Positions 1 through 35,810 of a DNA stretch of 36,758 nucleotides are shown here, one piece after another. Positions within the stretch are counted from its first letter, which is position 1, and every line of letters begins with the position of its first letter. Location: the NCBI GenBank assembly GCA_025966225.1, contig JAOPVI010000322.1, forward strand, positions 1-36,758, in the 5' to 3' direction. This DNA comes from Mycobacterium sp. (lineage in GTDB: Bacteria > Actinomycetota > Actinomycetes > Mycobacteriales > Mycobacteriaceae). The translations under genes were made by a program, and so were the position numbers. The notes under the pieces were generated by a model. That model was given only the letters and a program-made list of their open reading frames with translations, was not told the DNA's origin and did no database searches.

Positions 1-2612
<2,612 letters not shown>

Positions 2613-33382: not shown

Positions 33383-33934
33383 TCACCCCGTCGAGCGCAA
33401 CGTCCACGCCTGCCCGCGCAGATGCATCACCGTTCGGCTCACGGGCGCAACGTCGATGCGCCAGAACGACTTCGGCGGCGCGTCCAACGCGATCAGAATG
33501 GCCGCCCGAATCACCGCCGGATGGGTGACGGCGACGATCCGGCCGCGCCGGGTACCGAGTGAGTCGAGCCAACGTCGCACCCGCACCATCAGGCCGACGA
33601 CGGACTCCCCACCGTGCGGCGCCCCCGCGGGATCGGTCAACCAGATCGCGAGTTCGGCAGGCTGGACGCCGCCCAGCACGTTGCCGCGCCACGACCCGTG
33701 GTCCAGGTCCGCAAGCGCGGTGTCCGTCTCGGCGCGCAACCCGAGCAGCTCGGCGGTCTGACGCGTTCGCTTCTCCGGACCGCACAGCGCCGCGTCGATT
33801 GGCCCGAGGTCGACGGTCGCGTCGACCTGCCGGTGCCCCAAGGCATTCAAGGGCTCGTCGATGGGAAATCGTCCGGCTGACATCGCATCGGTCATACCGT
33901 GCGACACGAGAGTCAGCCGGAGGACGTCACTCAC
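33383..33934 (-). CDS. Histidine phosphatase-family protein with altered catalytic motif
   Basis: LRLTLVSHGMTDAMSAGRFPIDEPLNALGHRQVDATVD...CGPEKRTRQTAELLG...VTHPAVIRAAI; RHG is SHG here; overlaps the cbtA stop by 4 nt. Confidence 0.82.
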   Translation of the reverse strand: MSDVLRLTLVSHGMTDAMSAGRFPIDEPLNALGHRQVDATVDLGPIDAALCGPEKRTRQTAELLGLRAETDTALADLDHGSWRGNVLGGVQPAELAIWLTDPAGAPHGGESVVGLMVRVRRWLDSLGTRRGRIVAVTHPAVIRAAILIALDAPPKSFWRIDVAPVSRTVMHLRGQAWTLRSTG

Positions 33935-34779
33935 ACGGTTGCTTGCGCCCGGTCAGTCGACTCGGCGCCGCCGAGCAGCTTGTTCGCCATCGGAGCGAAG
34001 CCCAGCCCGATGGTGGCCCACAGGATCAGCTGGGCGCCAACCGAGTAGAGCCGGAACATGTAGAGATCGTCGGCCGAGAAGCCCGCGATGACGATCTTGC
34101 CCTGCGGATCGAGCAACGGCTGCGGCGTCTCCGTCGCAAAGTTGCCGTACTCCGCGTTGGCACTCAGATGGCCGAGCGACGGCAGAAGCAGCATCACGAT
34201 GGCAATCACGACGATGAAGGCGGCCCCGGAAAGCACGGTCGCCGAATACGACCCGAACCGCTCCTGCAGTCGTTTCGCCAACCACACCGCCAACGTGAAT
34301 GCCAGGACCGAGGCGACGACCATGGTCAGATACAGGCCCGTTCGGACACCGATCGTCTCACCGTGGCCGATTGACGGCGGATTGGCCGGGTACTTCAGGA
34401 ACGGCACCAGATACAGCGTGAAGAACATCGCTCCGGCCAGCAGGAGTGCCAGCGTGCCCGGACGCAGCGTGGTGAACCGACCGTAGACGACGCAGTAAAT
34501 GGCGGCGAACAACGCCCCCATTGCGATTCCGAACAGAAGCATGCCGAAGCCGATGCCCACGTTCGCTTGGATGGTGCGGGTGAACACCTCGGCATGGTCG
34601 CCTTCATCCATCGTCATACCGGCGGCGTGGTCCAGGGCGTGCTGGGCCTCGTCGCGGGCACCTTCGTAGTCGATGGCGCGCTGAATTATCGGCTCAGCGA
34701 AGATGCGCGCGAAGACGAACGCCAGCAGCCCACCGAGTCCGCCCCAGAGGGCACCCCGAATGATTATTCTCTTTTCCAT
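33931..34779 (-). CDS. cbtA: CbtA family (predicted cobalt transporter subunit)
   Basis: 282 aa polytopic, MEKRIIIRGALWGGLGGLLAFVFARIFAEPIIQRAIDYE...; directly follows cbtB. Confidence 0.88.
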   Translation of the reverse strand: MEKRIIIRGALWGGLGGLLAFVFARIFAEPIIQRAIDYEGARDEAQHALDHAAGMTMDEGDHAEVFTRTIQANVGIGFGMLLFGIAMGALFAAIYCVVYGRFTTLRPGTLALLLAGAMFFTLYLVPFLKYPANPPSIGHGETIGVRTGLYLTMVVASVLAFTLAVWLAKRLQERFGSYSATVLSGAAFIVVIAIVMLLLPSLGHLSANAEYGNFATETPQPLLDPQGKIVIAGFSADDLYMFRLYSVGAQLILWATIGLGFAPMANKLLGGAESTDRAQATV

Positions 34780-34794
34780 TTTCGGACGCCTGTT

Positions 34795-35004
34795 CTAGTG
34801 GCAGGGGAATCCGAGGAAGTGGCGGGCGTCATGCACGAACTCGTGCACGTGGGTGTCACTGCCGAAAATCGATGTCGCACCTTGGTCGATGCCGACGAAG
34901 TAGTACGCGAGCAGCGCGAACACGATCGCTGCGCTCAGCCACAAGGCCGCCTTCGCTGCCGAAAGATCGAACGCGCGGGGCAGGCTCTGGGGTGAAACGG
35001 TCAT
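34795..35004 (-). CDS. cbtB: CbtB family (predicted cobalt transporter subunit)
   Basis: 69 aa, single TM, His-rich C-terminus DTHVHEFVHDARHFLGFPCH. Confidence 0.88.
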   Translation of the reverse strand: MTVSPQSLPRAFDLSAAKAALWLSAAIVFALLAYYFVGIDQGATSIFGSDTHVHEFVHDARHFLGFPCH

Positions 35005-35044
35005 CAGATGCTCCTCTCGGGAATTCGCGTCCCGTTCAAGGGTG

Positions 35045-35128
35045 GTGACGAAACGTCGGGTCTGACTGTTCAGTGGCGCGACCGTTCTGGAATTCCACCA
35101 GATTCCGCCGTTCGTCGATTACAGCAGA
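35045..35128 (-). ncRNA. Cobalamin riboswitch-like leader of cbtB-cbtA
   Basis: Minus strand GGCGGAATCTGGTGGAATTCCAGAACGGTCGCGCCACTGAACAGTCAGACCCGACG reproduces cobalamin riboswitch blocks GGAA..(C)GGTG.GAAT..CC...CGGTC.CGCCACTG..AGTCAGA, in compact form; followed by a hairpin beside the cbtB RBS. Confidence 0.78.
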
Positions 35129-35144
35129 ATCGTAAACCCTGGGG

Positions 35145-35342
35145 CTAGGCTCCGGCGCCGTAACCCAACTGCTGAGCCGTGTACTTGGCGGCCTCGGTCA
35201 CCGGCACGGCTTGCACCGCGGTGCCGTATGCGCAGATCTCCGTCCACACGGCGCCGAGTTCGGTGGTGTCGAAGCGCATGGCGACGATGGCGTTGCCACC
35301 GCGCGTCTCGATGCTCTTCGCCACGTGCACCGACATTGTCAA
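35145..35342 (-). pseudogene. C-terminal half of a YbjQ/DUF74 heavy-metal-binding-domain protein (probable truncation)
   Basis: TRGGNAIVAMRFDTTELGAVWTEICAYGTAV matches the YbjQ C-terminal signature; the usual N-terminal half is not found upstream. Confidence 0.6.
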
Positions 35343-35411
35343 ACTGCCCGACAGCTGATCATTAGCTGTGATTTGCTTCGACGACTACCACGGCTCGGGA
35401 GGAGAAATCCC

Positions 35412-35810
35412 ATGGACATACGCGCTCGAAAACTTCGCACCGTCTTAGCAACGGCCTTAGCCGTCGCCGTGCCCACCGTCATCCTGGCGGGTGCCGGGAC
35501 CGCGCACGCCACGGTCCGCGGCTTGGACGTCAACTTCGAGCCGCTCCTGGGCGGCCTAGGAATAAGGGTGGAGGTGGTGGACACCGTTGGCGCGGGCAAG
35601 CAGAACTGTTCATACGATTCCAAGTCAGAGGGGGAATCGTTGCTGCCTCCGTTTCACAAGGACTTCGTCCTTGGGTTGAACGGCACGACGTCCTGGCAAA
35701 TCCCAGGCGTAGCCACCGGCACCCTTTGGCGGGTCCACATCGCCTGCACCTACGATCCGCCGAATCAGTTCGCGAAGCCCGGACTCTTCGACGACACCGT
35801 CACGTTCTGA
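35412..35810 (+). CDS. Secreted protein of unknown function
   Basis: 132 aa; MDIRARKLRTVLATALAVAVPTVILAGAGTAHATV signal peptide; GGAGAAA RBS. Confidence 0.7.
   Translation: MDIRARKLRTVLATALAVAVPTVILAGAGTAHATVRGLDVNFEPLLGGLGIRVEVVDTVGAGKQNCSYDSKSEGESLLPPFHKDFVLGLNGTTSWQIPGVATGTLWRVHIACTYDPPNQFAKPGLFDDTVTF

Follow-up and report, generated by a model that had tools for sequence, protein, structure and literature searches.

Can a cobalamin aptamer whose P6 arm has shrunk to a few nucleotides still control cobalt uptake in Mycobacterium? The question is raised by the window, a stretch of 36,758 nucleotides from a Mycobacterium sp. draft genome (6.3 Mb, 429 contigs), in which direct reading of the minus strand places a leader at 35130-35005 ahead of cbtB, cbtA and a phosphatase gene. 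The original prediction located the conserved core of cobalamin aptamers upstream of cbtB, and the core motif GGAATCTGGTGGAATTCCAGAACGGTCGCGCCACTGAACAGTCAGACCC was indeed found there at 35106-35058 (-), with a match to Rfam family RF01482 (AdoCbl) of 33.8 bits. The predicted gene spacings of 15 nt and -4 nt were also correct, and Pfam confirmed all three genes. The gene cbtB (34795-35004, minus strand) encodes a predicted cobalt transporter subunit of 69 aa with a histidine-rich C-terminus, and cbtA (33931-34779, minus strand), which follows after a gap of 15 nt, encodes a predicted subunit of 282 aa. Both proteins exceeded the Pfam gathering scores (CbtB, PF09489, 38.4 bits, cut-off 27; CbtA, PF09490, 242.9 bits, cut-off 30.7). 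Cobalt transport by CbtA and CbtB is a prediction in the literature (PMC2667541). Relatives of CbtA were present in 156 of the 199 species of the genus, and CobN is encoded in the same draft genome (1327 bits), so that cobalt uptake has a use.

The third gene (33383-33934, minus strand) encodes a protein of 183 aa with the histidine phosphatase fold (PF00300, His_Phos_1, 95.9 bits, cut-off 21.7), and shares 4 nt (GTGA) at its start with the stop of cbtA. In 25 of 30 mycobacterial loci the phosphatase gene neighbours cbtA, and 18 of these show the 4-nt overlap; because of this arrangement the gene is likely to be under control common with cbtBA. The protein scored 78 bits with the model for the alpha-ribazole phosphatase CobC (TIGR03162), below the equivalog cut-off of 162.9. 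It is a divergent branch-1 protein, and among solved structures those of phosphoserine phosphatase 1 and alpha-ribazole-5'-phosphate phosphatases come closest to it. Ser or Ala stands at the arginine position of the RHG motif in the mycobacterial operon phosphatases for which the N-terminus was shown; the window protein and its orthologues in L002-L035 carry SHA, SHG or AHA, and the second histidine region is kept in the window copy. The activity of the operon phosphatases is thus possibly altered or lost. On the other side of the leader lies a ybjQ-like gene (PF01906, window 35145-35810) of which only the 3' part is retained. Homology to L002 ends near 35303 and restarts at clpC (35951), and a plus-strand open reading frame with a signal-peptide-like start occupies the expected place of the 5' half, an apparent gene replacement.

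The RF01482 match covers 35130-35008 (-) over the full model length (E=1.6e-4, with 501 nt searched against all 4227 families) and is the only match to this family in the whole draft genome. By this covariance match of core and structure the leader belongs to the cobalamin riboswitch clan (CL00101). The score does not reach the RF01482 gathering cut-off of 50 bits, and no Rfam family matched at gathering level anywhere in the window. RF00174 had no match at E<=0.001 in the genome, nor one at gathering level (31.5) in the window. As regards RF01689 (class IIa), the cmscan of the leader, which reports the best family of each clan, indicated one further overlapping clan match of lower score without giving its name. 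Matches to MIR1094 and mir-598 in the same scan, miRNA families far below their own cut-offs, were dismissed as chance. The metE gene of this genome (L251, contig C91) begins 51 nt from the contig end and the draft does not contain its leader, so the absent RF00174 match is no evidence of a missing metE switch, and the apparent lack of one was discounted.

In the window CCACTG and AGTCAG lie 3 nt (AAC) apart, which agrees with the earlier suggestion that only a few nucleotides precede AGTCAG and that the P6 arm is reduced. By spacing count, P6 (35062-35073, minus strand) consists of CUG/CAG closed by the 6-nt loop AACAGU. On this reading P6 has shrunk to its base and a short loop and is not lost; the extension stem alone is gone. 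To this base adjoin J3/4 GGAA (35106-35103), P4 CTGG/CCAG (35101-35098/35090-35087), P5 with L5, GG-TCGCG-CC (35083-35075), and J6/3 ACCC (35061-35058), all on the minus strand, all within the RF01482 match and near-invariant in 85 aligned leaders. Upstream regions were fetched for 150 mycobacterial cbtA loci, including that of the window. In 137 of these cbtBA leaders the core was compact, with CCACTG and AGTCAG 3-6 nt apart; in three others P6 was longer (14-20 nt), and the remaining ten, two of which retain eroded remnants, lacked an intact core. In long-P6 B12 switches fetched from mycobacteria, 14-37 nt occupy the same place.

A leader that scores below the gathering cut-offs and lacks the P6 stem could be a degenerate, non-functional remnant of a B12 riboswitch, and real decay does occur in relatives. 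L030 (304-391) has lost most of P4-P6 and retains both P3 arms and P13, L181 (379-477) is eroded with much or all of P4-P6 lost, and L019, L026 and L029 contain no recognisable element; cbtBA is kept in all five. The eroded leaders L030 and L181 were nevertheless counted among the points that favour reading the element as a compact riboswitch, and the conservation of the intact leaders speaks against a remnant. The core, the junctions, L5, L13 and the spacing to the Shine-Dalgarno sequence (SD) are near-invariant in 85 diverse leaders, and P3 covaries. With a model of the compact family the window leader scored 110.9 bits, being itself one of the 85 training sequences, and the next match in the genome reached 17.4 bits; L109, which is outside the training set, scored 89.2 bits.

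The covariation was examined in the alignment of these 85 leaders, the window among them, with a named structure. The P3 helix (GACGAA/TTCGTC, 35116-35111/35052-35047, minus strand) was paired in 91.6% of cells, and five of its six pairs were changed on both sides. Over the whole structure 97.3% of cells were paired, and double-change cells numbered 58 against 16.5 after shuffling. Sliding the partner by 1-3 columns reduced pairing to 32-44%. In an independent test of the P3 arms the cognate combination scored 18.8 compared with 15.5 for permuted arms (sd 0.26; maximum of 500 shuffles 16.3). The covariation lies mainly in P3; P4, P5 and P6 are essentially always paired, and the P5, P6 and kissing pairs never vary in the compact set and give zero covariation information. 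The conserved, base-paired P3-P6 junction of clan CL00101 is thus present. Single-strand folding of the leader showed no unusual stability (z=-0.26) and was uninformative. Given this family-wide conservation and covariation, a degenerate remnant was rejected as highly improbable.

The same comparison bears on the Rfam thresholds. Among named relatives the nearest with this locus are Mycolicibacterium sp. CH28 (L002) and Mycobacterium sp. 141 (L003), and both have the same leader; that of L002 scored 32.6 bits with RF00174, above the cut-off of 31.5, and that of L003 scored 34.3 bits with RF01482. None of 40 sampled compact cbt leaders reached a gathering cut-off, and the only gathering-level match in that sample was a separate class-I element in L066. 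That species has a full class-I cobalamin riboswitch of 94.1 bits (501-737, plus strand), oriented divergently to the compact cbt leader and upstream of it. In a few cases, for example in G126 and G082, a compact leader does exceed the RF01482 cut-off. Since the architecture recurs in 137 of 150 leaders, P3 shows compensatory changes and L002 passes the RF00174 cut-off, the relatives indicate that the Rfam cut-offs are too strict for the compact variant. The original prediction was to be given up if no covariance model matched above threshold and a leader-reporter fusion showed no B12-dependent change. In the window no model matched at gathering level, and the first part of this refuting condition formally applies; it is outweighed because the relatives show the thresholds to be too strict.

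The leader was compared with the known classes using criteria taken from PMC11260477, PMC12713380 and PMC10653944. Class IIb is defined by GGAA in J3/4 and UCU in J6/3 (PMC11260477). Direct reading and the 85-leader alignment show GGAA in J3/4 and no P8-P12; UCU is not found in J6/3, which is ACCC in the window. With RF01482 and class IIb the leader shares the four-way junction P3-P6, the J3/4 GGAA, the lack of P8-P12, the L5-L13 kissing loop, a hairpin at the ribosome-binding site and the full-length model match. It differs from them in that the P6 extension, which takes up 16 positions of the model, is missing, the P3 helix is shorter, J6/3 is ACCC and not UCU, and L5 is UCGCG, compared with the reported consensus UCCCG (PMC10653944). 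RF00174 class I belongs to the same clan and has the same core and the B12-box-like AGTCAG, but the cbt leader lacks both its P8-P12 domain and its P6 extension, with no sequence at all between P6 and J6/3 in the window. The riboswitch of M. tuberculosis ppe2, proposed as a class IIb variant, is likewise mycobacterial, has GGAA in J3/4 and lacks P8-P12 and the UCU of J6/3; unlike the cbt leader it has a P6/P7 extension and a uORF relay (PMC11260477), whereas the SD of the cbt leader, which has no extension, serves cbtB directly. Fetched leaders with ppe2-like downstream proteins had ATAC or AACA in J6/3 and 23-27 nt in P6.

J6/3 was ACCC in 143, ACCT in three and CCCC in one of the 147 compact leaders, and ACCC or ACCT in seven of 26 long-P6 leaders, the others having mostly different sequences; the leaders in these counts are phylogenetically non-independent. 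A compact P6 is accompanied in these leaders by an ACC-type J6/3 where class IIb has UCU. J6/3 is linked to ligand selectivity, and its change to ACCC would fit a shift of the ligand to another corrinoid, to MeCbl or OHCbl, or to a broad range. The beginning ACC in 146 of 147 compact leaders, compared with seven of 26 long-P6 leaders, points in this direction, as does the ppe2 switch, which also lacks UCU and is broad in the B12 forms that it binds (PMC11260477). J3/4 GGAA is retained, however, and the AdoCbl family is the best Rfam match, and we consider a shifted ligand rather unlikely.

The L5 half of the kissing loop, CGCG at 35077-35080 (minus strand), is invariant in 85 of 85 leaders and complementary to L13. 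This CGCG:CGCG complementarity between L5 and L13, a mark of the clan seen here by sequence only, was found in all 85. Among other subtypes, two of the three leaders with L5 UUGCG had CGCA in L13, and L5 UCCCG and UACCG occurred mostly with CGG/GGA-type L13. In most subtypes this joint change of L5 and L13 appears as expected for a kissing interaction. L13 (CGCG, 35029-35026) is the loop of the hairpin P13, GGGA-CGCGAAT-TCCC, which was paired in 97.3% of cells. The hairpin that had been predicted to adjoin the ribosome-binding site is this P13; GGGACGCGAATTCCC (35033-35019, minus strand) abuts the SD GAGAGGAG (35018-35011, minus strand). An SD-like motif was present in 147 of 147 compact leaders, with 0-7 nt between the end of P13 and the GGA or GGC of the SD in all 147 leaders scored.

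A putative -10 element, TACGAT, is located at 35129-35134 (minus strand). In about 114 of 130 compact leaders a TANNNT begins 27-30 nt ahead of GGAA; further upstream the pattern occurs 0.1 times per position. We infer a transcript start near 35122, about six nucleotides before P3 and the aptamer, and such a transcript would therefore have no P1.

In the minimum-free-energy fold of the window leader a strand upstream of P13 pairs directly with the SD. This complementarity was not conserved (cognate 8.6, permuted 9.1, shuffled 9.6), and direct sequestration, being no better than the controls, was rejected as a general mechanism. A clamp by P13 beside the SD is therefore preferred, in which occlusion would have to be steric or come about through an alternative fold. 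Stabilisation of P13 by a kissing loop is a general mechanism (PMC10653944), and the two tested B12 switches of M. tuberculosis are translational OFF switches acting by SD masking (PMC11260477). At M. tuberculosis metE the mRNA also falls massively when translation is masked in this way, an effect ascribed to Rho-dependent termination and/or decay (PMC11260477). The cbt leader might similarly act mainly on the transcript level, by Rho-dependent termination or mRNA decay once translation is blocked or by termination within the leader, and not purely by preventing initiation. This is improbable here, as in every compact leader P13 sits right beside the SD, with no space for a separate terminator. 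Elsewhere cbtBA has been reported as repressed by B12 via riboswitches (PMC8123684). Those switches share with the present case B12 repression of a cobalt transporter operon; they differ in the organism, and for the region cited they are given as B12-binding consensus types, with cbtBA joined to cobEM and not to a phosphatase (PMC8123684).

These comparisons make it probable that the leader is a cobalamin riboswitch of a compact, class-II-like type and works on cobalt uptake as a translational OFF switch. Transcription would start just upstream of P3, and the RNA would fold P3-P4-P5-P6 around cobalamin, most likely adenosylcobalamin, with a wider corrinoid range possible. The bound ligand would stabilise the CGCG:CGCG kissing loop between L5 and L13, which would clamp the short P13 beside the cbtB SD, so that 30S subunits could not load. 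Through a presumably shared mRNA and translational coupling, cbtA and the phosphatase gene would be silenced alongside. At low B12 the kissing loop would be lost, P13 would open and cobalt uptake would be switched on, feeding CobN-dependent B12 synthesis.

Searched with the covariance model of the compact form, the family yielded relatives in 228 of its 251 genomes and the class in 154 of 297. Among the matches listed outside the genus most had longer spans, and would therefore have a longer P6. Twenty loci with compact-model matches were read in detail. Outside the genus, cbtBA follows a compact-P6 locus in one genus; in several other genera such loci stand before a protein beginning (M/V)ILLLSTSDTDLLS, which we take to be a putative CobN. 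In other genera of the same family, compact-P6 switches (4-5 nt) ahead of such cobN-like genes were seen at L217, L219, L221-L228 and L234. We put forward, tentatively and at somewhat less than even confidence, that these leaders form a minimal subtype (no P6 extension, ACCC in J6/3, UCGCG in L5, a transcript beginning at the aptamer) with its own ligand preference, which would govern cobalt uptake across Mycobacterium and, in a comparable compact version, cobN-like genes in sister genera, and would have been overlooked below the Rfam cut-offs.

The operon logic is ordinary; the interest lies in the compactness, the linked change in J6/3 and the systematic failure of the cut-offs. Studies of B12 control in mycobacteria have so far dealt mainly with two M. 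tuberculosis genes, metE and ppe2. No mention of cbtA was found in the mycobacterial B12 papers retrieved. An earlier description of the compact subtype is possible, above all in subscription papers. Curated covariance cut-offs usually miss this whole conserved subtype, and a very compact natural B12 aptamer would be useful for probing the roles of P6 and J6/3 in ligand selectivity. For the mycobacteria themselves, a conserved B12-sensing leader on the cobalt operon of most species of the genus would show how cobalt supply is matched to the demand for B12.
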